Origin: a virus
Reading direction: 5' to 3' (one strand)
IMG/VR virus record: IMGVR_UViG_3300044617_000810
Coordinates: 1-40,656 of that record
DNA: 40,656 bases
The notes under the pieces are model-generated. The model was not told the DNA's origin. It saw only the letters and a list, made by a program, of their open reading frames with translations, and made no database searches. This document shows positions 1 through 40,656 of the stretch, in pieces; position 1 is the stretch's first letter; each line of letters starts with the position of its first letter. Both the position numbers and the translations under genes were made by a program.

Positions 1-127
1 ATTCTTCCTGCTCCCGCTCGGTCGTACGAGAGATCCACTCCAACGGCGGTCTAGGATAATCCTGCGGAGTGTTACGAGCTTTCTCAGCAAGCTGTTCTTG
101 GCTCATCCAGGCTTCGTCGGGCCAAGG
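1..127. repeat. Left copy of the contig-end repeat, exact to 39815-39941
   Basis: These 127 bases match 39815-39941 exactly. The first mismatch is A at 128 against C at 39942, and similarity continues with a few substitutions to about 175. Together with the second shared block (817-930), this means the right end of the window re-enters its left end. An exact 127-base match is what a de Bruijn assembly with k=127 would leave at a branch; that explanation is inference. It is not a usual phage direct terminal repeat, because the sequence between the two shared blocks differs. Confidence 0.95.
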
Positions 128-148
128 ACGGTTGCGGACAGTTCCCAT
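1..148 (-). CDS. Reverse-strand hypothetical (moron-like), partial copy; 3' end outside the window
   Basis: This is the first 49 codons of a gene whose full copy lies at 39726-39962. The start ATG (146-148 on the reverse strand) is preceded by CAGGAG eight bases upstream, a good Shine-Dalgarno that fixes the start. The readable product begins MGTVRNRPWPDEAWMSQEQL; differences from the other copy are synonymous in the readable part. No family is recognised. It lies against the direction of the late operon and has its own promoter-like sequence (219-247), the usual arrangement of a moron expressed separately from lytic genes. Confidence 0.7.
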   Translation of the reverse strand, partial: MGTVRNRPWPDEAWMSQEQLAEKARNTPQDYPRPPLEWISRTTEREQEE

Positions 149-218
149 AACTGGATCTCCTGTTTAGCTGTTTGCGCAGGGAGCGCCGGTAGCAAGTGGA
201 TTAAATCACCAAGAGTGT

Positions 219-247
219 TTCTTACGCCATTTGGGGTGTTTGGTCAA
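219..247 (-). promoter_or_regulatory. Putative promoter of the reverse-strand moron gene (left allele)
   Basis: Reading the reverse strand, TTGACC (242-247) and TAAGAA (219-224) are separated by exactly 17 bases. The other allele keeps the same layout (TTGACG, 17 bases, TAACAT at 40032-40060), although the spacer sequence has diverged. Conservation of the boxes but not the spacer supports a real promoter. Transcription would begin near 212 and leave an untranslated leader of about 63 bases before the ATG at 148. Confidence 0.5.
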
Positions 248-261
248 ATCGCGAGGGTTGC

Positions 262-375
262 ATGAAATACGGAAGCTCTAAGTCAATGGGAAAATTCAAA
301 CCCTGCGCAGGATGTCCATCTCTTGCCAAATGCAAGGCAGCTGGCGCCTGCATGGGCAGGAAAGGTCGTAAGTGA
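262..375 (+). CDS. Small Cys-rich basic protein (37 aa), left-allele cassette
   Basis: A 37-codon frame with four Cys in two pairs: CAGC near residues 14-17, then CK and AC spaced downstream. The C-terminus is very basic (MGRKGRK). The product is small enough to be a zinc- or iron-binding peptide, but no family is recognised. Its stop overlaps the next start as ATGA at 375, suggesting translational coupling to the following two genes. No strong Shine-Dalgarno is seen; GAGGG ends six bases before the ATG. It is absent from the other allele of this locus. Confidence 0.6.
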   Translation: MKYGSSKSMGKFKPCAGCPSLAKCKAAGACMGRKGRK

Positions 376-521
376 TGAAAGGGCTTTATGCCAACATTCA
401 CGCCAAGCGTGAGCGCATTGCAGCTGGCTCTGGCGAGAAGATGCGCAAGCCTGGCTCCAAGGGAGCGCCATCTGCCGCAGCTTTCAAGGCTTCAGCCAAG
501 ACGGTGAAGAAGGGCAAGTGA
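375..521 (+). CDS. Small basic conserved phage protein (48 aa)
   Basis: Begins MKGLYANIHAKRERIAAGSG and is rich in Lys, Arg, Ala and Gly, with no predicted membrane segment. I recognise the opening motif as typical of very small proteins encoded near the portal-scaffold region of many podoviruses (recalled, not searched); the function is unknown. It is joined to both neighbours by ATGA overlaps (375 and 521), so the three small genes 262-781 probably form a coupled set. This gene is missing from the right-end allele. Confidence 0.75.
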   Translation: MKGLYANIHAKRERIAAGSGEKMRKPGSKGAPSAAAFKASAKTVKKGK

Positions 522-781
522 TGGCGAAAGACCCGAAACTCACCCGCGCCGGTGTCTCTGGATACAACAAGCCAAAACGCACCCCAAGCCATCCGACAAA
601 GTCGCATGTCGTGGTCGCCAAGTCTGGCGACAAGACAAAAACGATCAGGTTTGGTCAGCAAGGCGTGAGCGGTTCGCCGGATGGAACGAGCAGGAACAAG
701 TCATTCAAGGCTCGCCACGAAGACAATATCGCGAGGGGTAAGATGTGGGCGGCATATTGGTCGGACAAGGTCAAATGGTGA
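521..781 (+). CDS. Conserved small phage protein of the KRTPSHPTKSHVVVAK type (86 aa)
   Basis: The 86-residue product contains the run KRTPSHPTKSHVVVAK, then KTIRFGQQGVSGSP, and ends AAYWSDKVKW. This pattern occurs in a family of unknown function found in podoviruses and some large viruses; I recall the motif but not a validated role. The ATG at 521 overlaps the preceding stop (ATGA). A GTG at 518 in the same frame is possible, but the ATG fits the overlap. The end at 781 overlaps the next gene. It is absent from the right-end allele. Confidence 0.75.
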   Translation: MAKDPKLTRAGVSGYNKPKRTPSHPTKSHVVVAKSGDKTKTIRFGQQGVSGSPDGTSRNKSFKARHEDNIARGKMWAAYWSDKVKW

Positions 782-1029
782 TCTTATCCGACGACATCGC
801 CCGCCGCGCGAAACAACTTTTGGATGATGAAGTCATCCAGCAGGCATTCGCCTCTCTTGAGGGGCGATACATCAACGAGTGGCGCAATACGCCACCCGCT
901 GACGTCCAGAAGCGAGAAGCTGCATATGCAGCCATTCGTGCTCTGGATGACATCAAGACGAGGCTTGGTTCGATGGCAAATGCGCCAAAGGTCGAGGCTC
1001 ACAACAACAGAAACGCTGCGAAGCGTTAA
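775..1029 (+). CDS. Hypothetical 84-aa protein upstream of scaffold
   Basis: A helical, charged protein (SSDDIARRAKQLLDDEVIQQ in the right-end copy) with no recognised family. Here the start is either ATG 775 or GTG 778 (GTGA with the previous stop). In the right-end copy the start is ATG 40504, equivalent to codon GTG 778. The sequences of the two copies become identical from 817. Its position just before the scaffold gene in a tightly packed late operon suggests a virion-assembly role, but nothing in the sequence proves it. Confidence 0.75.
   Translation: MVILSDDIARRAKQLLDDEVIQQAFASLEGRYINEWRNTPPADVQKREAAYAAIRALDDIKTRLGSMANAPKVEAHNNRNAAKR
817..930. repeat. Second block shared between the contig ends, exact to 40543-40656
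   Basis: These 114 bases are identical to the last 114 bases of the window. The first mismatches upstream are at 816/40542 and a few positions in the first codons of the gene at 775. The offset from the other shared block differs by 88 bases, so the right-end version of the intervening cassette is 88 bases shorter. Confidence 0.95.
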
Positions 1030-1080: not shown

Positions 1081-2079
1081 ATGACGACCACCGATACGCC
1101 TTCTGGCATCGGTTTGACTGAAGCTGCGAGTCAGTTCGCTGCCATTCTGGACGGCAAAGCCGATACCCAGACGCCCGAACAGGACGCTGCTGAAGAAGGC
1201 CCGGCCTCTGAAGATCAGGCCGAGGCGCTAGAGGCTGCCGCCGAGGATGAGACACCAGCTGACGAGGCTGGCGCCGAGGAAGAGGAAGCCGCTGCTAATG
1301 ACGAGGATGCTGAAGAGGCTTCCGACCCAATGGAGCAGCTCGTCACCGTCAAGATCGACGGCAAAGAAGAGCAGGTTCCACTGAAGGAAGCGATAGCCGG
1401 CTACCAGAGGCAAGCAGATTACAGCCGCAAGACTGGCGCATTGTCCGAGCAGCGCAAGCAGCTCGAGCAGGAAGCCAGTCAGGTGATGGTAGAGCGCCAG
1501 CAGTACGCTCAACTCCTTCAGGCTTTGCAGTCACAGCTTCAAGAAGCTGTGCAGCAGCAGCCCGACTGGGAGAAGCTCTATGCTGAAGACCCGCTCGAAT
1601 ATGTACACCAGAAAGAGCTATATCGCGAAAACAACGAACGGCTGCAGGCAGCAGCTGCGGAGCATCAGAGAGTGTCTGCTCTCATGCAACAGCAGCAAGT
1701 GGCTCAGCTTCGCGACATGGTTCAGAAGGGCCGTGAGAAACTCACCGAAACGATCCCGGCTTGGAAGGATCAAAAGGTGTGGGAGAGTGACCGCGTCAAG
1801 CTGCGCGAATATGGGCAGAAACTCGGATACTCTGAAGACGAATTAAGCCAGGTCTATGACCCGCGTGCTGTGATCGCCGTCTACAAGGCGATGAAGTACG
1901 ACCAGATCATGGCGAAGCGTCCAACTCCGGTTGCGCAGAATGGCCCCCGGCCACTGCGTGCTGGTTCGCCTCAAACGGCACCAGCCAGGCGTCACTCGGA
2001 AGTCACCAAGGCAAAACAGCGTCTCGCTCAAACCGGCCACGTCCGTGACGCGGCCAAGTTATTTGAAGGACTGATCTAG
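1081..2079 (+). CDS. Capsid scaffolding (assembly) protein
   Basis: A 332-residue protein that would guide procapsid assembly and then leave the shell. Residues about 15-90 are extremely acidic (Glu/Asp/Ala-rich). A conserved stretch follows (VTVKIDGKEEQVPLKEAIAG, about residues 90-110), then a long Gln/Glu/Lys coiled-coil region to about 215, and a basic C-terminus that would contact the capsid protein. Acidic N-terminus, coiled coil, basic tail and position directly before the capsid gene are the standard marks of podovirus scaffolds. The start ATG is preceded by AAAGGTGAT. The capsid gene follows after 14 bases. Confidence 0.88.
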   Translation: MTTTDTPSGIGLTEAASQFAAILDGKADTQTPEQDAAEEGPASEDQAEALEAAAEDETPADEAGAEEEEAAANDEDAEEASDPMEQLVTVKIDGKEEQVPLKEAIAGYQRQADYSRKTGALSEQRKQLEQEASQVMVERQQYAQLLQALQSQLQEAVQQQPDWEKLYAEDPLEYVHQKELYRENNERLQAAAAEHQRVSALMQQQQVAQLRDMVQKGREKLTETIPAWKDQKVWESDRVKLREYGQKLGYSEDELSQVYDPRAVIAVYKAMKYDQIMAKRPTPVAQNGPRPLRAGSPQTAPARRHSEVTKAKQRLAQTGHVRDAAKLFEGLI

Positions 2080-2093
2080 AAAGGATCGAGACA

Positions 2094-3074
2094 ATGGCAC
2101 AGCCCACCAACCTGTTCGACCGCTACGACGGTACGAAGGCAGTTCGTGAAGACCTCGCCAACATCATTTACAACATCAGCCCCGAAGACACGCCGTTCAT
2201 GTCGTCTGTTGGGCGCGAGAATGTTTCCAACACCTATTACGAATGGCAGACCGACGCTCTGGCGGCGGCCAGCACGTCGAATGCTGCGATCGAAGGCGAC
2301 GAGGCCACTCTCGACGCCCGCGCTGCTACCAACCGCGTCGGAAACTACACGCAGATCAGCCGCAAGGTGATCGGTGTGTCTGGCACGGTCGAAGCCGTCG
2401 ATAAGGCCGGCATGAAGTCATACCTAGCTTACGAAATGGCCAAGGCGTCTTCTGAGCTGAAGCGCGACATGGAGAGCATCCTGCTCTTCAACCAGGCGGC
2501 GGCTGTCGGCTCTGCTTCTGTTGCCCGCAAGACCGCCGGTCTGCCGGCGTGGCTTCGCACCAACGTCAGCAAGCACTCTGGCGGTAGCAACCCGACGATG
2601 TCGTCCACTGATGACGGCTATCCGAATGCGGCCCGCACCGATGGCACCCAGCGCGCCTTTACCGAGGCGATGCTGAAGACTGTCATTCAGAGCGTCTGGT
2701 CGCAGGGTGGTGACCCGAAGGTCGCGATGATGGGTCCGTTCAACAAGACGGCTGCATCGGCCTTCACCGGCATCGGTTCCAACCGTATCAACCAGGTGAA
2801 CGGTTCACCGAAGGCGTTCTCGATCGTAGCGTCTGCTGATGTCTATCTTTCCGATTTCGGGAAGGTCGCGTTTGTAGCAAATCGGTTCCAGCGCGAGCGT
2901 GATGTCTTCGTGCTTGATCCTGAGTATGCGTCGGTTGCCTATCTGCGCAACTTCAAGACTGACACCTTGAGCAAGACCGGCGACTCCGAGCGCCGCATGC
3001 TGACGGTGGAATATGGCCTGAAGGTGAAGGCCGAGAAGGCTCACGGCATCATCGCCGACCTGACCACGTCTTAA
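2094..3074 (+). CDS. Major capsid protein, SU10/DUF5309 type
   Basis: A 326-residue HK97-fold capsid subunit. The N-terminus (NLFDRYDGTKAVREDLANII, then SPEDTPFMSSVGR and YEWQTDALAAAS) is characteristic of the DUF5309 family that includes the phage SU10 capsid protein. The length is normal for that family. AAGGA lies nine bases before the ATG. A strong hairpin terminator follows at 3082-3107, so this gene probably closes a high-expression segment that includes scaffold. Recognition is by sequence pattern only. Confidence 0.92.
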   Translation: MAQPTNLFDRYDGTKAVREDLANIIYNISPEDTPFMSSVGRENVSNTYYEWQTDALAAASTSNAAIEGDEATLDARAATNRVGNYTQISRKVIGVSGTVEAVDKAGMKSYLAYEMAKASSELKRDMESILLFNQAAAVGSASVARKTAGLPAWLRTNVSKHSGGSNPTMSSTDDGYPNAARTDGTQRAFTEAMLKTVIQSVWSQGGDPKVAMMGPFNKTAASAFTGIGSNRINQVNGSPKAFSIVASADVYLSDFGKVAFVANRFQRERDVFVLDPEYASVAYLRNFKTDTLSKTGDSERRMLTVEYGLKVKAEKAHGIIADLTTS

Positions 3075-3081
3075 CGAAGTC

Positions 3082-3107
3082 GGGGCAGGAGGCGAACCTC
3101 CTGCCCC
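3082..3107 (+). terminator. Rho-independent-like hairpin after the capsid gene
   Basis: A perfect 11-base stem GGGGCAGGAGG / CCTCCTGCCCC closes on a CGAA tetraloop eight bases after the capsid stop. The U-rich tail is short (TCTCAT), so it may only reduce read-through, which would give more capsid than downstream products. Confidence 0.8.
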
Positions 3108-3147
3108 TCTCATAGCTGACCCGCCGTGATGGCGGCATGGCCCTTAG

Positions 3148-3462
3148 ATGGAGTTTCTTTTGAAGCTACCGTTTTCTTATGACCCGGTGCTCGGCATCAA
3201 GCGGACGTTCCATTGGGACGACACCACTGATGAGTTCCTGATCCAGACTGAACAGGAAACGACCGACATCGTGGAAGCCAACAAGGCTGCCTACAATGAT
3301 GCGCCAGATCGCTGGGGCGAGTGGACCCGTGTCGCATCAATACCGATCTCTCTGTACTTTGACCTCAAGAAAAAGGGCATTGCGGACGACGAAGAGGCAA
3401 TGAAGCGGTGGCTGAATGATGGCGACAATCGCTTCTTCCGCACCAGGCCGGGGAACGTGTGA
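3148..3462 (+). CDS. Hypothetical 104-aa protein downstream of capsid
   Basis: A soluble, slightly acidic protein beginning MEFLLKLPFSYDPVLGIKRT, with Trp-rich stretches (KRTFHWDDTTDEF, DRWGEWTR). No family is recognised, and no membrane segment or signal peptide is seen. The last base of its stop is the A of the next gene's ATG (TGATG at 3460-3464), so it is coupled to the glycosyltransferase. Position between capsid and head-tail adaptor suggests a minor structural or capsid-decorating role, which is only inference. Confidence 0.7.
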   Translation: MEFLLKLPFSYDPVLGIKRTFHWDDTTDEFLIQTEQETTDIVEANKAAYNDAPDRWGEWTRVASIPISLYFDLKKKGIADDEEAMKRWLNDGDNRFFRTRPGNV

Positions 3463-4133
3463 TGAGCTACCGTCTCGCCATATGCCTTCCATGCCGCGAC
3501 ATGCTTCATACGTCTTTCGCCTATGATCTTGCGCGTCTGACTGCCTATTGGTCTGCCAAGCACGTTCCGAATGGTGGATCTCTGTTGATGTTCACATCGC
3601 AGGGTACGCTGATCGCCAATCAGCGACAGGAACTGGCCATCGAGGCTTTGAACGCAGGAGCGGATTATATCCTGTGGCTTGATAGCGACCATCGCTTTCC
3701 AAAGGACATTGTCGATCGCCTGCAGTCGCACGACAAGGATGTTGTGGCCTGCAATTACTCGACAAGACGCTTGCCGTGTAAGCCGGTGGCTTTCAAAGAC
3801 CATTTCTGCCGCAGTCTTGTCTACACCTCAGATGACAGCACCGGGCTTGAGGTCGTTGCCGCGGTCGGAATGGGCGTCATGCTTGAGAAGGCTGACGTCT
3901 ACAAAAAGCTGGGGTTGCCATATTTCTCGATCGGCTACAGCCAGGCGAGCCATGATTTCTTTGGCGAAGACATATTCCACTGTCACAAGCTGAAAGAAAT
4001 TGGTGTCGATGTGCATGTCGATCACGACGCATCCAAACTCATCAAACACATCGGCATGTTTGAGTTTGGAAACGAGCACGCCGACGCCCACAAGGAATTT
4101 GTAAAAGAGGAGGGCGTGCAGAATGTCGCTTAA
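3462..4133 (+). CDS. GT-A-type glycosyltransferase in the head gene cluster
   Basis: A 223-residue protein whose central LWLDSDHRFP (Asp74-Ser-Asp76) is the nucleotide-sugar/metal-binding DXD of GT-A enzymes. An Asn-Gln-Arg helix (IANQRQELAIEAL) precedes it, and His-rich stretches follow (FHCHK, VHVDHD). Phage proteins of this type are usually annotated as glycosyltransferases; the acceptor is unknown. Lying among head genes, it may modify a virion protein or host glycans. The start ATG overlaps the previous stop (TGATG); GTG 3459 is an alternative. Its end overlaps the adaptor gene by 11 bases. Confidence 0.75.
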   Translation: MSYRLAICLPCRDMLHTSFAYDLARLTAYWSAKHVPNGGSLLMFTSQGTLIANQRQELAIEALNAGADYILWLDSDHRFPKDIVDRLQSHDKDVVACNYSTRRLPCKPVAFKDHFCRSLVYTSDDSTGLEVVAAVGMGVMLEKADVYKKLGLPYFSIGYSQASHDFFGEDIFHCHKLKEIGVDVHVDHDASKLIKHIGMFEFGNEHADAHKEFVKEEGVQNVA

Positions 4134-4746
4134 CACTTACGCCACCCTGAAAACGTCAATTGCAAACTGGCTTAATCGTGAAGACTTGACCAGTCAGATA
4201 CCTGATTTCATCACGCTGGCAGAAGCACGGTTCAACCGTGAACTTCGTGTCAACTCAATGCTGCAGCGTGATTATACGGTGGCGTCAACGGGCTACGTTG
4301 AACTGCCGTCTGACTGGCTGCAGCATGTCTCTATCACGGTAACGTCTCCAACTGACACTTATAGTGCATTGGAGTACATTTCTGCCGAGCGTTACTATGA
4401 TCTGCGCAATGATGGTCTGACTGGTACGCCCAGGTATTACACGATTATTGACGACAACATTCTTCTGCTTCCGGCGCCAACTGGCAACGCGACGCTTGAG
4501 ATCATCTATTACGGCAAGATCCCTGCGCTTTCTGATAGCAACACGTCGAACTGGTTGCTGGCGCGCTCGCCAGATCTCTATCTGTACGCTGCTCTTATCC
4601 AGGCTGAAGCATACCTTCAGAACGATGAGCGCATCCAGCTTTGGAATGCGGCTGCAGATAAAATCATTGCCGACATGGATCGTGAAAGCGAGCGAGCAAA
4701 ACGCCCGCAGGGAGCCTTGTCGGCAAGAAAACGCACTTTTGGATAA
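4123..4746 (+). CDS. Head-tail adaptor protein (SU10 adaptor-like)
   Basis: A 207-residue protein beginning with the helical SLNTYATLKTSIANWLNRED, followed by ITLAEARFNRELRVN and a beta-rich middle (LPSDWLQHVSI, LEYISAERYYDL, YYTIIDDNILLLPAP). It finishes with a helix and a basic tail. This order matches the adaptor family that bridges the portal ring and tail in SU10-like podoviruses. It overlaps the glycosyltransferase by 11 bases. Neighbouring capsid and tail genes agree with the call. Confidence 0.82.
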   Translation: MSLNTYATLKTSIANWLNREDLTSQIPDFITLAEARFNRELRVNSMLQRDYTVASTGYVELPSDWLQHVSITVTSPTDTYSALEYISAERYYDLRNDGLTGTPRYYTIIDDNILLLPAPTGNATLEIIYYGKIPALSDSNTSNWLLARSPDLYLYAALIQAEAYLQNDERIQLWNAAADKIIADMDRESERAKRPQGALSARKRTFG

Positions 4747-18741: not shown

Positions 18742-19226
18742 CTGACCACCCGCCTGGCATAGGCAGCACCGGCACGGCTGACCCGCTGCAGTGCGCTGAC
18801 GCCTTGGTAGTGGCAAGCGGCGGCGATCCGGCGATCGCCTTTGGCGCCGCGGTAGCACATGGCCAGGTGGCGCATCCCCCATTCGGTCTGGACCGCGCAG
18901 CTAGCCCGCCTGATCGATGGCCCTCTGTAGCCCATAGCGCGGGCTGTAGACGGCATGATCTGAAGCGGGCCACTGGCACCGCTCTTGTTATGGCGATGGC
19001 ACTGTAGCCCGCTCTCTGCCCTTCCTACACGCAGCGCCAGGTCTACCGGCACCCGGTGCCGTTTGGCCGCGGCTGTCACCAGTGCGGTGGCGTCGGAGGC
19101 GGTGGCCGGTTTAGGCGCGGTTAAAATAACGCCAATCAAAACAATCCCGGCCATGCCATAGGTATAGGCAAGCAAGTGCTTTGAAAACGCTTGGGAATTA
19201 TACTGCTGCCGGGGTCGCCATTTCAT
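18738..19226 (-). CDS. Exported SLT-type lytic transglycosylase
   Basis: A 162-residue protein with an N-terminal hydrophobic signal/anchor (about 19-36, GMAGIVLIGVILTA) ending near PATASDA. An SLT domain follows: RVGRAESGLQ (Glu71 as catalytic acid), GASGPLQIMPSTARAMGY, and a C-terminal AACHYQG. It would cleave peptidoglycan in the periplasm. Unlike the virion enzyme at 12226 it is exported, and it is encoded with integrase in the leftward operon. A role in superinfection exclusion or envelope change is possible. The ATG overlaps the integrase stop (TAATG). Confidence 0.82.
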   Translation of the reverse strand: MKWRPRQQYNSQAFSKHLLAYTYGMAGIVLIGVILTAPKPATASDATALVTAAAKRHRVPVDLALRVGRAESGLQCHRHNKSGASGPLQIMPSTARAMGYRGPSIRRASCAVQTEWGMRHLAMCYRGAKGDRRIAAACHYQGVSALQRVSRAGAAYARRVVR

Positions 19227-20299
19227 TACTTCGCCCTTGTTTTAATTGGGGAAATTTGATTTTTGCCTAAACCTGGTGGGGGTGGTTTAGGCAGATTGTG
19301 CTCAATACGTTCCGCCGTGACCGCCGCCAAACGCTTCCGGTTGGCAGTCTCCGTGTACCTCTCAGCCTCGCTCAGACGGCTCCAGGTGAACATCGCCATG
19401 AGCTCGTGCGCCGAGGCGCCAGCCTCTGCCGCGATCGTCGCCCCAGCCTTCCTCAGACCGTGGGCGCGTCCCGGCACACCGGCTGCCCGGCACGCCTTGC
19501 CAAACCAATTGCCGAAACTGGCCTCGCTAGCAAAGGGCGTGCCTTTCTCCGTCACCAAAAACACCAGGTCGCCGGTAGGGGCAGCGTCGATCGACGCCTG
19601 CAGCCGGGCGAAAACCGGAATGCTCGCCCAGGCTTTGGTCTTCTGGGTCTGGATCGTGATCACCCCGTCCCGAACATGCTGGCGACCGACCCGGTAGAGA
19701 TCGGAGCGCCGCAAGCCGGTGAACAGGGCAAGGTCCATTGCCAGCCGCTCGCGCGTGCCAACAGGCCAGCGGGCGTGAAACCGCTCAACCTCGTCCACCG
19801 TCCATGTATGGAAGCCCTGGTTTTTGATTTTCGGCCGACGCGCCTGATCCACCGGGTTGACGGCCACGAGCTCCACCGACACAGCCCAGCTGAACAGTTG
19901 GCTCATTACTTTGCGGAACGTCGCCCCGGCGTGCGGCAGCTTCCGGTCGATTGCCTCGTTGATATGTTTCTTGCCGATCGCCTTGAACGGGACGTGGCCT
20001 GCCTCACGCACGACATGCTGCAGGATATTGTCGCGCATGCGGCGCGTCGAGCCCGCCAGCTGCGCCCAGTGCGCCGACCGTTTGTAAGCCTCAATCAACC
20101 AGCGCAGAGTGCGCGGGTCAGCCTTGGAAGGCGGCGCAACGGCAGCGCCCGTCAAAGCGGCGGCATAGGCGGCGTCGAAGCCGGGATCATTCAAATCCGG
20201 CAGGCGCGTCCAGGCGCCATGACTTTTGCGGAAATAAAACATGACCTTGCCGTGCCTGGTGCGGACACGGTTGACGTAACGCGGCAAGAGCTTGGGCAT
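19226..20299 (-). CDS. int: Tyrosine-recombinase integrase
   Basis: A 357-residue phage integrase for site-specific insertion in the host chromosome. The N-terminal MPKLLPRYVN plus TRHGKVMFYFRKSHG is typical of rhizobial integrases. A SAM-like core-binding domain spans about 60-150. Catalytic residues visible: Arg197 (TGLRRSD), Lys220 (TQK), His280 and Arg283 (HGLRKAG), Trp306 in the usual His/Trp position, and Tyr315 (ERYTETAN). The ATG at 20299 is preferred over GTG codons at 20308/20311 because the protein family starts at MPK. No attP was identified next to it. Confidence 0.9.
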   Translation of the reverse strand: MPKLLPRYVNRVRTRHGKVMFYFRKSHGAWTRLPDLNDPGFDAAYAAALTGAAVAPPSKADPRTLRWLIEAYKRSAHWAQLAGSTRRMRDNILQHVVREAGHVPFKAIGKKHINEAIDRKLPHAGATFRKVMSQLFSWAVSVELVAVNPVDQARRPKIKNQGFHTWTVDEVERFHARWPVGTRERLAMDLALFTGLRRSDLYRVGRQHVRDGVITIQTQKTKAWASIPVFARLQASIDAAPTGDLVFLVTEKGTPFASEASFGNWFGKACRAAGVPGRAHGLRKAGATIAAEAGASAHELMAMFTWSRLSEAERYTETANRKRLAAVTAERIEHNLPKPPPPGLGKNQISPIKTRAK

Positions 20300-20304
20300 G
20301 ACGG

Positions 20305-20496
20305 TCACCACAGTTTGATTTCGCCAGCATAGTGAGTCTGGCTCCTGTTTTCCGCAAGTCCTTCATCATTGAATGGCTCTAACACAATGTTTCCATTGGC
20401 AGAAATCTCTACTTTCATCTGCATTCCGGCCTGTTTCACTGCCCGCAAAACGCGCGCGATGTCGGCCTGAGTAACCTTTGCAGCGGTGCGCGGCAT
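20305..20496 (-). CDS. Small protein next to integrase (possible directionality factor)
   Basis: A 63-residue protein with KVTQADIARVLRAVKQAG, a helical opening typical of small proteins immediately before integrases in rhizobial prophages, followed by a beta-like stretch (KVEISANGNIVLEP). It may help integrase, for example as an excision factor, but this is not proven. The ATG at 20496 overlaps the glycosyltransferase stop (TGATG). The stop is six bases before the integrase ATG. Confidence 0.65.
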   Translation of the reverse strand: MPRTAAKVTQADIARVLRAVKQAGMQMKVEISANGNIVLEPFNDEGLAENRSQTHYAGEIKLW

Positions 20497-31295: not shown

Positions 31296-31349
31296 ACCTA
31301 TCCATCTGTTCGCTTATCTGAAGAGCAGAAAACACGGAGAGTGTTCAAC

Positions 31350-32087
31350 ATGCCGAAGGAATTGAAGAAAGCGTTCGGTTACATGAGAACGTCCAGTGCC
31401 ACGAACGTGGGCGAGGACAAGGATAGCGACAAGCGACAGCGTGCGGCCATCGAGGCATTCGCCAAGCGCAACGGGTATGAGTTGGTCGATGTCTTCTATG
31501 ACGCTGCGGTGTCGGGGGCGGACCCGATCGACACCCGGCCTGGCTTCCTGCGCCTGCTGGCTGCCGCCAAGACCCCCCACGGGGGTGCGACCACCCCGCC
31601 CCCCGCTGCCGGTGACGACACTCCTCACGCGCCACCCTCCAAAAAATACATTTTGGTCGAGAGCCCCGACCGCTTTGCCCGCGACCTGATTGTACAGCTG
31701 ACCGGCCACGACCTATTGAAGGCGCACGGCATAGAGTTGATCCCCACAACGGCGCCTGATTTCTTTATAGCCGACACCCCCACGGCAGTCATGGTGAGGC
31801 AGATCATGGGCTCAATCGCCGAGTTCCAGCGCGCCAATCTTGTTGCGCAATTGGCAGGCGCCCGCGCACGAAAGAAGGAGCTCACTGGCCGGTGCGAGGG
31901 CCGCAAGCCGATTTCTGCGACCTACCCCGAGGCAGCCTCCTTGGCGAAGCGTCTTCGCCGCAAGAAACCAAAGGGCGGCGTAATGAGCCTCCGGGCCATC
32001 AGCGCCGAACTCGCCGCCCAAGGCCACCTCAATGAGCGAGGCGCCCCGTTCAATCCCCGTGCCGTGCTTGAGATGGTCAATTCATAG
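31350..32087 (+). CDS. Serine recombinase (resolvase/invertase type)
   Basis: A 245-residue recombinase. The N-terminal catalytic part has FGYMRTSSATN (Ser nucleophile following YMRT) and VESPDRFARDLIVQ (catalytic Arg pair). FFIADTPTAVMVRQIMGSIA leads into the long E helix. A C-terminal helix-turn-helix (SLRAISAELAAQGHLNERG) would bind DNA. A Pro/Thr/Gly insert (about residues 73-97, from C-rich DNA) interrupts the usual LLAA-to-VESPDRFARD link. It lies between packaging genes, not by a tail-fibre switch. GGAGAG eight bases before ATG 31350 supports this start. Confidence 0.88.
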   Translation: MPKELKKAFGYMRTSSATNVGEDKDSDKRQRAAIEAFAKRNGYELVDVFYDAAVSGADPIDTRPGFLRLLAAAKTPHGGATTPPPAAGDDTPHAPPSKKYILVESPDRFARDLIVQLTGHDLLKAHGIELIPTTAPDFFIADTPTAVMVRQIMGSIAEFQRANLVAQLAGARARKKELTGRCEGRKPISATYPEAASLAKRLRRKKPKGGVMSLRAISAELAAQGHLNERGAPFNPRAVLEMVNS

Positions 32088-35080: not shown

Positions 35081-35436
35081 TGGCAGACACCCCTCAGACA
35101 CCCAGCAAAGGGTCGGAAGCCATTGATCGCATCAAGTGGCTGTTCAATAATGCTTCCAGCAACATGCGCAGCGGCCCAGGAATATTGCCGCTGTTGATGA
35201 TGGGCATGACTGGCCAGCCTATGCCTGGCTTCAATTATCGTCATTTTTACAACCAGGCCATCAACCGCGGCCAGAACCCGGCAGAAGTATTACCGTGGCT
35301 GAACGGTGATTGGTCTGGTTCCTCTCAGTCTTCCAGCAATCAGCAGCCGGCAAATCCGATCGGCGGCATGCCGCAGTGGTATCAGGATTGGTACAGCTCG
35401 CAAGGCAAGTTCGGTGGCCCGCGGGGTCTGCTTTGA
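35080..35436 (+). CDS. Hypothetical 118-aa protein upstream of portal
   Basis: A Ser/Asn/Pro/Gly-rich protein (RIKWLFNNASSNMRSGPGIL then PLLMMGMTGQPMPGFN), ending in aromatic-rich MPQWYQDWYSSQGKFGG. No family is recognised. It starts in the TAATG overlap with the Gly-rich gene and ends in TTGA with the portal, so the three are translated together. It may be a minor head component. Confidence 0.65.
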   Translation: MADTPQTPSKGSEAIDRIKWLFNNASSNMRSGPGILPLLMMGMTGQPMPGFNYRHFYNQAINRGQNPAEVLPWLNGDWSGSSQSSSNQQPANPIGGMPQWYQDWYSSQGKFGGPRGLL

Positions 35437-37601
35437 GCGAAGATGATTTCACCGAAAACACACTAGCAGCAATGGGCCTCGACGGCGAAGACGCCGCTTC
35501 CGAGGGTATGTCGAAGGAAGAGTTTCAGGGTGCGGTGAAGGCCGCCATCACTGACGCCTGCGATTACATTGATGACGAGATCGCGCCGGCTCGAGAGAAG
35601 GCGCAGAAATATTATCGCGGCGATCCGTTCGGCAATGAGGAGGAAGGCAGATCTCAGGTCGTTATGACCGAAGTCCACGACGTCATTCTTGCCATGATGC
35701 CGTCTCTCTTGCGTGTGTTCACTGCATCGGAAAAGCCAGTCGAATTTGCGCCCCGCCGGTTTGAAGATGTTCCAATGGCGGAACAGGCGACAGACTACGT
35801 TTCTTATGTTTTTTCCGTGGACAATCCCGGTTTTACGATCTTGCACTCGGCGTTCAAGGACGCACTCAAGAGCAAGATTGGAATTTTCAAGTGGTATACC
35901 GCCACGACCTACAACATCAGCGAAGAGAAATATTCTGGCATTGATGTGGGTCAGCTGAACCTGCTGCAGCAAAACGGCCAGATCGAAATGATCTCCGTGG
36001 CAGAGCGCGGCGAAGGCGAGCCCGATCCGTTGACTGGTATGCCTTCGCCTCTTTTCGACGTCATGATTAGGCGTCGGGAAGAAAAGAAACGTCAGGTGAT
36101 TGAGTGCGTACCACCTGAAGAGTTCATCATTGCGCGCAATGCCCGCGATCTCGACAACGCAGATTATGTTGGCCACCGTTCGCTGAAGACGCTCTCTGAA
36201 CTGGTGGCGATGGGCTACGATCGCGAGGATATTGAAGAGCACGGCAACAGCGCATCTACTTTTGAGATGAACCTCGAAGCTCAGACGCGCAACCCGGCGC
36301 TGCGCGAATGGCTTGGCGGCGCCACAGACAATTCCGTTGACCCGGCCATGCGCCGTTACGAGTACATCGAAAGCTACATTCGCATCGACAAGGACGGTGA
36401 CGGCATTGCCGAGCTTCGCCGCGTCTGCACGATTGGTCAGGCTTGCTACATCCTGCACGATGAAGTCGTTGATCGTGTCAAGATGTCCGTCATCTGCCCA
36501 GATCCCGAAAGCCATATGGTCATCGGATCATCCATTGCAGACCAGGTGATGGACCTGCAGCTGATCAAGTCCAACGTGGTCCGCAACACCCTCGACAGCC
36601 TGGCGCAGGTGATCCACCCCCGCACGGTCGTGGTCGAGGGCATGGTCAATATGGATGATGTTCTGAACGTCGAGACTGGCGGCGTGATCCGCGCAACTCA
36701 GCCAGGCATGATCCAAGAGTTGGGCAACACATTTGTTGGCCAGCAGGCGCTTCCCATGCTGGGATACTTGGACGACATCAAGTCAAGTCGCACTGGCATA
36801 TCCAAGGCGTCTCAAGGTCTGGACCCTGATGTCCTGCAATCAACCACCAAGGCGGCTGTGACTGCGACCATGAGTGCTGCGCAAGAGCGACTTGAGATGG
36901 TTGCCCGCATTTTTGCCGAGACTGGCATCAAGCGTCTGTTTCGCGGCCTTTTGAAAGAAGTCATTGAGAACCAGGATCGCCCCCGCATGGTGCGTCTGCG
37001 TAATCAGTGGGTGCCAATTGATCCGCGGTCGTGGGATGCCGACATGGACGTGATTGTCAATGTTGGATTGGGTACTGGATCAATCGAGCAGCGGGTGCAG
37101 TCGCTGATGGCGATCGTGGCTCAGCAGAAGGAAATCTTGCAGACACTTGGGCCAAACAATCCGTTGGTCAGCGTCAAGCAATTCCGCAACACCTTGGCGC
37201 AGATCATTGAGCTTCAAGGTTTCAAAGACCCGTCTCGTTATTTCAACGAGATCACGCCCGAAGCTGAAGCGCAGATGGCGCAACCCCAGCAGCAGCAACA
37301 GGCCGACCCTGCTCAGATTTTGGCGCAGGTCGAAGCTCAGAAAATCCAGAAGGATATGCAGATCGCGCAGATGAAGGCCGAGCTTGAGGTCGAGAAGCAG
37401 CGCAAGGCTGACGATCTGGAGCGCGACCGCCTCGACGCCGACATCTGGCTGAAGGCAACCGAGATGCAGCTGAAATACGGCACGCAGATCCAGGTCGAGC
37501 AGCTGTACGCCATGCTCCAGCGCGATCGTGACGCTGCAAAGCTAGCGGCGCAACAGCAGGCTGCGGCGATGCGTCAGCAACAGCCGATTGGGGTGCAGTG
37601 A
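35433..37601 (+). CDS. Portal protein with probable TTG start
   Basis: A 722-residue portal, the dodecameric DNA gate between capsid and tail. Recognisable segments are CDYIDDEIAPAREKAQKYYR near the N-terminus, then VTEVHDVILAMMPSLLRVFT-like wing and stem regions. SSRTGISKASQGLDPDVLQS and TKAAVTATMSAAQERLEM match SU10-like podovirus portals, and a Gln-rich coiled tail (about 650-722) follows. The in-frame start that fits the operon is TTG 35433 (TTGA overlap); an ATG at 35472 lacks a ribosome site. It follows the terminase, as expected. Confidence 0.9.
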   Translation: MSEDDFTENTLAAMGLDGEDAASEGMSKEEFQGAVKAAITDACDYIDDEIAPAREKAQKYYRGDPFGNEEEGRSQVVMTEVHDVILAMMPSLLRVFTASEKPVEFAPRRFEDVPMAEQATDYVSYVFSVDNPGFTILHSAFKDALKSKIGIFKWYTATTYNISEEKYSGIDVGQLNLLQQNGQIEMISVAERGEGEPDPLTGMPSPLFDVMIRRREEKKRQVIECVPPEEFIIARNARDLDNADYVGHRSLKTLSELVAMGYDREDIEEHGNSASTFEMNLEAQTRNPALREWLGGATDNSVDPAMRRYEYIESYIRIDKDGDGIAELRRVCTIGQACYILHDEVVDRVKMSVICPDPESHMVIGSSIADQVMDLQLIKSNVVRNTLDSLAQVIHPRTVVVEGMVNMDDVLNVETGGVIRATQPGMIQELGNTFVGQQALPMLGYLDDIKSSRTGISKASQGLDPDVLQSTTKAAVTATMSAAQERLEMVARIFAETGIKRLFRGLLKEVIENQDRPRMVRLRNQWVPIDPRSWDADMDVIVNVGLGTGSIEQRVQSLMAIVAQQKEILQTLGPNNPLVSVKQFRNTLAQIIELQGFKDPSRYFNEITPEAEAQMAQPQQQQQADPAQILAQVEAQKIQKDMQIAQMKAELEVEKQRKADDLERDRLDADIWLKATEMQLKYGTQIQVEQLYAMLQRDRDAAKLAAQQQAAAMRQQQPIGVQ

Positions 37602-39778
37602 TGGCGATGTCCTACACACCACGCATTCCCGGTTATCTGAGCGATGGTAGCGAGCTTTCCTCATATGAACCGACGTTTCGCGAGCGCGCGACAGATTGGA
37701 TGCGCGGCTTGCTTTACAGTGATGATCGCGAAGGGCAGCTCAAGGCAGAGCAGCTGTCAAATGTGCTTGAGTTTACGCCATATGGTGTCGCGACCGGCAT
37801 TGATGACGTGCGCGAGGCTTTAGGTACTGGAGACTATCTAACTGCTGGTACGATGGCCGCTATGGCTGCGTTACCTGGCGCCACACCAAAGCGCATGACG
37901 CAGTTACCAAATCTGCGCGAGATGCCGGTAGAACAGGCTGTCAAAGTGGCTCGCAAAGAGCCTCATTTGATGCCCTCATCCGATCGTACTGAGGGCGCTT
38001 TCATTGGTGGTCCACGCAGTATTCAAGATCGTAAAGACCTGCTCAAGATGCGCCGTGAGCTTGACAAGACGGTAGCGCGCGATCCTCGTGGCGGTGATTG
38101 GTATGATCGGTATCGCGCCAGCGTTAACGAGGTTACAGGCGGAGATACTCGCGATAATCTTTGGATGACGAACATTCAAGGCCAATATTCTGCTGGCGTT
38201 TCACCGCAGGCAGAATTGGCTTTTGCATTAAAGGATACCAATTCCTCTATTGCCACCGGCAAACCAGTAAAAGCGGCCCGCCCTGCTCAACAGCAGGCTT
38301 CCATGCGTGCAATTGTAAACAATGACCCGACCGAGTTTCAGTTGGGTGCAAAGACGGGTGAGTATGCACGCCGGGTGAACCCGGATCAGCCTGGACCGGC
38401 TACGGCTACGGGCGTCAATGATTTCCGGCATGCTAGAAATCTAGGATACACGGAGCCAGACGGTACTCCACAGCGCAATGCTCTTTCAGGAGCACAGCAT
38501 ATCTTCTCAGATTACGAAACAGCCCTTGCGGTTGATCGCGCCAACAAGAAGAACCTTTCCGGTCGTAGCAACTGGACAGGCGAGCAGTTGCAGGCCGTTC
38601 CGTGGGTGGTGCAGAAGGCAGATGATCTATGGTCACGCCAGTCTGCCGGCTACATTTCTGAAGCGCGCTCGATGCTGAAGGGCGGAACGCAGCAGGAAAT
38701 TGAAAATGCCGCTCGCGAGCTTGCATTTCAGGACGCAAACAAAACGATCGGCGACTTCTTTCCCAAGCACACGGCCTATGCGACCTATGAGGCACAGCCT
38801 GGCGCTATGACAGGGCATCTTCCGGGCTCTGTAGGTGCGCCAAGCTGGCAGCGTGATTTGTATGCCAATGACACGCGTAGCGCATGGAACACAGCTCCTG
38901 GTGGCCGTGACGCGCTTTATTCAGGTATGCGATTGGGAGACACTGGATACGGCATGCGTGTGCGCCCTTCGCTTGAAATGCAGGGCATGTATACTCCGCC
39001 TGGCGGCGCCACAGAATTTAATCCTGGAAACGTGGCTCGTCCGCTTGTGGCGTTCCAATCTGGCGATGTGAAAAGCGTCCCTATGGCAGACCGCGGGCTG
39101 CTTGATGGGGTCGAGGCTACGCGTGCTTACATTGACGCACAAGGCGCAGGTGCGTGGCACAAGCCTTGGACAGATGGTTCGCCCGGCCAGTCGAATAGTG
39201 TCTTCATTACAAAAAAAACGCCCGGCATCCTTGACCCGGTTGAAATGCAGAATTTACAGCAGATCGGCGCGCAAGCTGGATTGCCTGACATCGTGGACGT
39301 GAACGAAGGTGTCACGATGACGAGTTTCTATCCAGAACCCGTTGGCCGTACGCCTAAACAGCAGAAAAGCCTTTCGGCAAACATTGCTAACGCTGGCGAC
39401 TACCGCTCGATTGAGCGCGCCAAGGTGGACAGCGGCTATATTGGTTATGAAAAAGCCTGGGAGCAGCAAGGCAAGGGTGGAGCAACCCGCAAGCTGCTCC
39501 GTACCATTGACGACTTGCCGCGCGCAACGCAGAGGGCTTTGGACAACAATCCGGCCGTCCCTCAAGGCGCTTTGGCACGCCTTGAGCGCGACGAACAATG
39601 GGCAGCAACTTGGGGAGCAACGCGCGCCGACATCCAAAACGCCAGAAAGATTATTGGCGACGGGCCGGGCTGGATTGGCCGGCTTCGTGTTGCGGTGCGT
39701 CGAAAAGAAATCCTTCCGGCGATCGCTACCGCTCTTGTGGCTTCTTCAGCAATGCAGGGGGTCGGGGATGAGCAATAG
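37601..39778 (+). CDS. Large hypothetical virion (ejection-like) protein, 725 aa
   Basis: Begins MAMSYTPRIPGYLSDGSELS. Then come LEFTPYGVATGIDDVREALG and an Ala/Met-rich hydrophobic hairpin (DYLTAGTMAAMAALPGAT), like the start of large phage ejection or head proteins. The middle and end are soluble with many Asp/Arg and no motif I can name; it ends with a small hydrophobic helix (ILPAIATALVASSAMQG). The TGATG overlap links it to the portal. The 3' end overlaps the reverse-strand gene by 53 bases. Confidence 0.7.
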   Translation: MAMSYTPRIPGYLSDGSELSSYEPTFRERATDWMRGLLYSDDREGQLKAEQLSNVLEFTPYGVATGIDDVREALGTGDYLTAGTMAAMAALPGATPKRMTQLPNLREMPVEQAVKVARKEPHLMPSSDRTEGAFIGGPRSIQDRKDLLKMRRELDKTVARDPRGGDWYDRYRASVNEVTGGDTRDNLWMTNIQGQYSAGVSPQAELAFALKDTNSSIATGKPVKAARPAQQQASMRAIVNNDPTEFQLGAKTGEYARRVNPDQPGPATATGVNDFRHARNLGYTEPDGTPQRNALSGAQHIFSDYETALAVDRANKKNLSGRSNWTGEQLQAVPWVVQKADDLWSRQSAGYISEARSMLKGGTQQEIENAARELAFQDANKTIGDFFPKHTAYATYEAQPGAMTGHLPGSVGAPSWQRDLYANDTRSAWNTAPGGRDALYSGMRLGDTGYGMRVRPSLEMQGMYTPPGGATEFNPGNVARPLVAFQSGDVKSVPMADRGLLDGVEATRAYIDAQGAGAWHKPWTDGSPGQSNSVFITKKTPGILDPVEMQNLQQIGAQAGLPDIVDVNEGVTMTSFYPEPVGRTPKQQKSLSANIANAGDYRSIERAKVDSGYIGYEKAWEQQGKGGATRKLLRTIDDLPRATQRALDNNPAVPQGALARLERDEQWAATWGATRADIQNARKIIGDGPGWIGRLRVAVRRKEILPAIATALVASSAMQGVGDEQ

Positions 39779-39962
39779 CCACCGAGTTAATCCCGCTGTC
39801 GATCATCCGGTAAAATTCTTCCTGCTCCCGCTCGGTCGTACGAGAGATCCACTCCAACGGCGGTCTAGGATAATCCTGCGGAGTGTTACGAGCTTTCTCA
39901 GCAAGCTGTTCTTGGCTCATCCAGGCTTCGTCGGGCCAAGGCCGGTTGCGGACAGTTCCCAT
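39726..39962 (-). CDS. Reverse-strand moron-like hypothetical protein (78 aa)
   Basis: The complete copy of the gene truncated at the left edge. It is a small, Pro/Arg/Glu-rich protein (WMSQEQLAEKARNTPQDYPR, then PPLEWISRTTEREQEEFYRM). CAGGAG precedes the ATG at 39962. It faces the late operon and overlaps the end of the 725-residue gene by 53 bases; its own promoter-like boxes lie at 40032-40060. No family is recognised. It is the stable flank of the variable cassette. Confidence 0.75.
   Translation of the reverse strand: MGTVRNRPWPDEAWMSQEQLAEKARNTPQDYPRPPLEWISRTTEREQEEFYRMIDSGINSVAIAHPRPPALLKKPQER
39815..39941. repeat. Right copy of the contig-end repeat, exact to 1-127
   Basis: Partner of 1-127 (offset 39814). 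It contains the coding start half of the reverse-strand gene. After 39941 the two copies differ at scattered sites, then diverge strongly from about 39990. Confidence 0.95.
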
Positions 39963-40031
39963 AACTTGATCTCCTGTTTAGCTGTTTGGGCAGGTGGCCC
40001 TGGCCGCAAGTTGGTTAAATCGCCAAAAGCG

Positions 40032-40060
40032 ATGTTACGCTCATTCTGCGCTAGCGTCAA
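40032..40060 (-). promoter_or_regulatory. Putative promoter of the reverse-strand gene (right allele)
   Basis: Reverse strand TTGACG (40055-40060), 17 bases, TAACAT (40032-40037). It has the same spacing as in the left allele with a different spacer sequence. Downstream, a GATTTAA-containing leader is also shared by both alleles. Confidence 0.5.
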
Positions 40061-40075
40061 ATACGGTGTATGTAT

Positions 40076-40507
40076 ATGAAAAAACTAACAAAAATGGACG
40101 CGTCCAAGGTTATAGAAGGTATTCTTGAGGATGCAGATGGCGAAGACATTGGCACCGCTCGCAAGAACGAACGTAACCGCCAGAACGTGATCAACAATTG
40201 GGAACTTGGTCCAGAAAAAGCATCGGTCGATCCGAAGGCGAATGGCGCCTACTGGCAGAAGATGGCTGACATCTGGGAGATGGACGAAGCGCAGGCCCGC
40301 CGTCAGCTGTGCGCGAATTGCGAATATTTCAATAACACGCCCGACATGCAGGAGAAAATGGAGAGCGTTCCGCTCGACCAGTACGACCGCGACGGCGGTG
40401 GTCGTGGCTACTGCGTGAAGTTTGATTTCATCTGCCACAATCTGCGTGTCTGCCAGGCGTGGGAGGAAAAGTCGTTTGAAACTCCTGACGATGAGAACGA
40501 CGAATGA
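40076..40507 (+). CDS. Cys-rich possible iron-sulfur protein, right-allele cassette
   Basis: A 143-residue acidic protein whose C-terminal half has CANCEYFNN and GYCVKFDFICHNLRVCQAWE. Five Cys in CxxC plus spaced-Cys order resemble the high-potential iron-sulfur-like fold or a zinc ribbon seen in podovirus proteins (recalled). The N-terminus is helical. ATG 40076 is preferred over 40070, with GGTG upstream. It ends in ATGA with the following gene. It occupies the position taken by three small genes in the left allele. Confidence 0.75.
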   Translation: MKKLTKMDASKVIEGILEDADGEDIGTARKNERNRQNVINNWELGPEKASVDPKANGAYWQKMADIWEMDEAQARRQLCANCEYFNNTPDMQEKMESVPLDQYDRDGGGRGYCVKFDFICHNLRVCQAWEEKSFETPDDENDE

Positions 40508-40656
40508 TCTCATCCGACGACATCGCCCGCCGCGCAAAACAGCTTTTGGATGATGAAGTCATCCAGCAGGCATTCGCCTCTCTTGAGGGGCGATACATCA
40601 ACGAGTGGCGCAATACGCCACCCGCTGACGTCCAGAAGCGAGAAGCTGCATATGCA
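40504..40656 (+). CDS. Right-end partial copy of the 84-aa gene at 775
   Basis: The first 51 codons of the gene whose complete copy is at 775-1029. The ATG overlaps the preceding stop (ATGA). The first 38 bases differ slightly from the left copy, while 40543-40656 are identical to 817-930. It is cut off by the window end; on a closed genome it would continue as at 931-1029. Confidence 0.85.
   Translation, partial: MISSDDIARRAKQLLDDEVIQQAFASLEGRYINEWRNTPPADVQKREAAYA

Follow-up and report, generated by a model that had tools for sequence, protein, structure and literature searches.

The two ends of the window, by which we mean the whole 40656-nt record from a virus collection that was analysed, almost certainly carry two strain versions of a single gene slot that were joined by the assembler, with the slot itself being an ordinary site of cassette swapping. 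Bases 1-127 are identical to 39815-39941, with the first mismatch at base 128, and the 114 nt at 817-930 are identical to 40543-40656. The interiors are unrelated, and the right copy (allele B, 842 nt) is 88 nt shorter than the left (allele A, 930 nt). An earlier note on this DNA had reported these end repeats around differing interiors, and exact comparison confirms them, as it does the gene sizes given there (37, 48 and 86 codons on the left, and 143 on the right if counted from the ATG at 40076). No other same-strand exact repeat of at least 30 nt was found in the 40.7 kb window, and this excludes a chance origin for the pair. The features of the locus and of the neighbouring head genes are listed in Table 1.

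Table 1. Features of the cassette locus and head module in the window
Feature	Position	Strand	Remarks
Left copy of shared 127-nt branch-point sequence, 5' part of rev78	1..127	.	exact match to 39815-39941
Allele A leader: promoter-like site and 5' UTR of rev78, then g37 start codon	128..264	.	TTGACC-17-TAAGAA on - strand
g37, allele A, 37 aa, Cys-rich	262..375	+	no family match
g48, allele A, small basic protein	378..521	+	phrog_16028, E 9.6e-26
g86, allele A, widespread in phage contigs	521..781	+	phrog_7595, E 2.7e-34
g84, conserved gene ahead of scaffold gene	775..1029	+	phrog_8161; start is right cassette border
Head scaffolding protein	1081..2079	+	phrog_3927, E 1.6e-67
Major capsid protein	2094..3074	+	phrog_1328, E 1.2e-102
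Portal protein	35310..37601	+	phrog_1216; SU10_portal E 9.9e-211
p726, accessory gene after portal gene	37598..39778	+	missing from many relatives
rev78, with a conserved promoter-like site of its own; convergent to p726 and overlapping it	39726..39962	-	
Right copy of shared 127-nt branch-point sequence	39815..39941	.	exact match to 1-127
Allele B stretch, probably second strain	39942..40656	.	identical to L004, L005
R145, allele B, five invariant Cys and a His, HiPIP-like motif	40076..40507	+	143 codons from ATG 40076; 145 from ATG 40070
g84 5' part in allele B strain, truncated by contig end	40505..40656	+	84-codon gene; left copy starts at 775

We suggest that at least two strains were present in the sample, one carrying cassette A (g37, g48 and g86) and another cassette B (R145), in one variable slot that lies between rev78 and g84 among the head genes of a circular map. 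A de Bruijn graph assembler would then meet a branch at the 127-nt k-mer 39815-39941, and the contig would start in A, go once round the genome and end in B. Contigs from metaSPAdes and MEGAHIT that are broken at repeats share ends of maxK length, and COBRA tests within-population variation as a cause of such breaks (PMC10914622), while strain bubbles in assembly graphs have been described by Phables (PMC10563150). Like the bubbles of these two studies, the window has a circular component, two paths between shared k-mers and an end overlap of maxK length, but it differs from them in retaining both alleles as the ends of one contig and in having a short overlap on the right. At 127 nt the overlap at the start equals the highest k-mer size in common use with metaSPAdes, and it stops at the first divergent base. 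The left edge of exactness was thus probably set by the assembler, being a branch point in the graph and not a biological border. At the merge point the full k-mer is not reached, as the right end falls 13 nt short of k=127, a shortfall that may be due to trimming.

Each path is found singly in an independent contig. L172 is identical to the window over 4200 of 4200 nt at 35615-39814 and continues with 455 nt identical to window 1-455, and so into allele A, but it stops inside the cassette, and A running into g84 is seen in the window only. L004 and L005 each have a single copy of the locus, in the order portal, p726, rev78, R145, g84, scaffold and capsid, and both are identical to allele B across all 842 nt. 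The same 4.2 kb therefore precedes A in L172 and B in the window, so that the window core with A would belong to one strain and the B tail to another. The right flank of the window has 38 differences from L004 in the 4.3 kb up to 39807 and zero afterwards, with 39808-39941 being a stretch common to the window core and the L004-type strain, at which the second strain would be entered. We take the window contig to be probably a join of two strains, with its B tail derived from an L004-like second strain. A and the L004-type strains share the 161 nt at 817-977, and the merge point would thus lie just beyond the right end of the contig. The mixed population with cassette replacement proposed in the earlier note fits well with these contigs, as A occurs alone in L172 and B alone in L004 and L005, at the same locus. 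That note had given tandem copies in one molecule as the observation that would overturn it, and L172 and L004 jointly contradict this; tandem duplication is likewise at odds with L005.

There are two further observations on these contigs. At the end of L172 (equivalent to window 456-489, within g48) 9 of 34 bases differ from allele A, and this is either a third g48 variant or a chimeric contig end. At window 2279-4500 the differences from L004 are concentrated in the capsid gene and immediately downstream of it, at up to 22 per 250 nt, whereas the preceding 1.2 kb has zero differences; the capsid protein is 99% identical, and the pattern looks like a recombination tract.

The same contigs bear on the possibility of true terminal redundancy, in which every virion chromosome would carry both copies as terminal repeats that differ from each other and measure 842 and 930 nt. 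Direct terminal repeats can occur in such phages, and Sinorhizobium phage phiM5 (MF074189) has repeats of 357 nt upstream of its terminase gene. However terminal repeats are as a rule exact copies, and in the window the two copies at the ends are not identical, having unrelated interiors. Furthermore L004 and L005 cross the locus without interruption and have it only once, and one and the same p726 gene is joined to A in L172 and to B in the window. The contigs of relatives, too, span the locus and break elsewhere. We consider terminal redundancy of this type very improbable.

The window phage is, on its gene content, a temperate, podovirus-like phage, with profile matches for scaffold, capsid, portal, terminase, tail fibre, endolysin, tyrosine integrase, CI-like repressor and serine recombinase. 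The order at the locus is portal - p726 - rev78 - cassette - g84 - scaffold - capsid. Four near-complete relatives (G003, G004, G005 and G006) share this gene circle but are broken at other places, as a circular map, also put forward in the earlier note, would lead one to expect. G006 (IMGVR_UViG_3300031857_000472) has an inexact end overlap of its own, of 245 nt with a single mismatch at offset 118, and is likewise a near-circular record. From the different opening points and the overlapping ends of G006 we infer a circular phage map, arising by permutation or from collapsed terminal repeats. phiM5 has portal, an 85-aa g84-like gene, scaffold and capsid in the same order as the window, but it has no cassette, lacks p726 and rev78, and has its physical ends upstream of terminase. 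A search for the portal protein in bacterial genomes gave a single distant match, in Enterovirga aerilata (46%), and with this lone match an alphaproteobacterial host is a guess.

With the join of two strains as the preferred explanation of the contig ends, there remains the nature of the slot. The likeness of the two copies extends past the exact part: on the left it is 94% as far as base 215 or so, and on the right 98% across 779-930. The cassette borders are thus less sharp than was stated in the earlier note, which placed them correctly as to the genes concerned (the rev78 leader and the start of g84) but took as a sharp edge what for the 127-nt repeat is probably a k-mer effect. When A, B and the relative L198 are aligned, all three have a common leader, and on its minus strand lies the promoter-like site of rev78, TTGAC(C/G)-17 nt-TAA(G/C/A). 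In L198 the site is empty, with the leader running directly into g84, and the site is also empty in G005, phiM5 and MW202711. The last 23 nt of the A leader, start codon included, are identical to L198, and in the viral collection an exact copy of this leader end is present only in L172 and the L198 contig, while B diverges from the A/L198 leader some 50 nt ahead of the start codon. The right-hand border falls at the g84 start codon, with a stop/start overlap in both alleles. As judged from these alignments the biological borders are the rev78 promoter region, which is kept in all variants, and the g84 start codon. Sequences closely matching the leader were confined to the two allele copies, which speaks against a repeated regulatory motif.

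Conserved flanks with unrelated inserts (A and B) or none are as expected for cassette replacement. Whole-gene cassettes would replace one another among relatives through recombination in the conserved flanks, namely the rev78 promoter region and the g84 start, and the cargo would consist of accessory late-region genes. The interval from portal to scaffold, in contigs whose portal gene is related, ranges from about 280-430 nt with g84 only, the empty state, up to 4192 nt when filled, a range that marks it as a cargo site in this phage group. The arrangement resembles phage mosaicism and the moron-type insertions of late operons, in which accessory genes lie at the borders between conserved head genes; as in those insertions there is a gene, rev78, with its own promoter-like site, and there are relatives with empty sites. 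R145 is also the neighbour of g84 in G003, G004 and L006-L011, with an identity of about 70%, and B would thus probably be the older state in this group, with A a newcomer. Somewhat against this, the A leader is closer than that of B to the empty-site leader.

Two other histories of the slot need to be considered. The alleles could be complementary deletions from an ancestral cassette that had R145 and g37-g48-g86 together, and not replacements. Relatives of R145, g48 and g86 do occur in the same fetched stretch at 10 of 152 loci, often close together, but both sets together were not found in any contig of this lineage, and G001-G008 all lack g86 while five of the eight have R145. The empty site in L198 also argues against deletion, as does the divergence of the B leader well ahead of the start codon, which a plain downstream deletion would not yield, and we regard this history as unlikely. 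In the second the phage itself would swap the cassette by site-specific recombination. The window does encode a serine recombinase (Resolvase domain, 31341-32087) besides its tyrosine integrase, but there is no further cassette copy elsewhere in the genome to act as partner, no flanking recombination sites were seen, with the only long direct repeats being the allele copies themselves, and the borders are homologous flanks. Such programmed switching seems to us scarcely credible. The tyrosine integrase is at 19226-20311, and there are no long inverted repeats near the serine recombinase.

Exchange of cassettes between relatives being the preferred history, the case is most likely one of ordinary phage mosaicism caught by an assembly bubble. 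It is thus appropriate to read a public viral record of this sort as a circular map in which one locus is represented by the versions of two strains, and not as a linear genome with both, since if the record is taken at face value gene counts will be off by one cassette. A second outcome is that the stretch from portal to scaffold can be recognised in this phage group as a place for cargo, for which there are clear empty states. A more far-reaching view, which we think quite unlikely, is that the slot is under balancing selection, with two functionally distinct cargoes kept and exchanged between otherwise near-identical phages, and with a third variant, that of g48, in L172; if so, cargo and genome backbone would be reshuffled on ecological time scales.

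With regard to the cargo genes, g48 and g86 fall into PHROG families without an assigned function, and relatives of g86 are abundant in phage contigs. In L024 and L058, g86 relatives are located with g37 and g48 between the terminase and portal genes. R145 belongs to a Cys-rich family with at least 116 relatives in viral contigs, including loci L095-L171, in which C79, C82, C113, C120, H121 and C126 are invariant and for which there was no family match in PHROGs. Its GenBank relatives carry the name high potential iron-sulfur protein, and it shares with HiPIP (PF01355) the pattern CxxC ... GYC ... C-x-AW, but it has an additional invariant Cys-His and its Pfam scores are under the cut-off (best 13.1 bits against a cut-off of 22, with 5 of 35 members weakly matched). 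Sequence searches of PDB with R145 gave no relative, and a fold search of PDB with its AlphaFold model, which is poor (pLDDT 57), gave no significant match. R145 cannot on this basis be treated as a proven HiPIP. As a guess, it may be a small accessory protein with metal or Fe-S binding.

In the case of rev78, the conservation of the upstream TTGAC(C/G)-17-TAA site in three variants makes it a candidate moron. It is a lone reverse gene in the head region, and overlaps the end of p726 by 53 nt.
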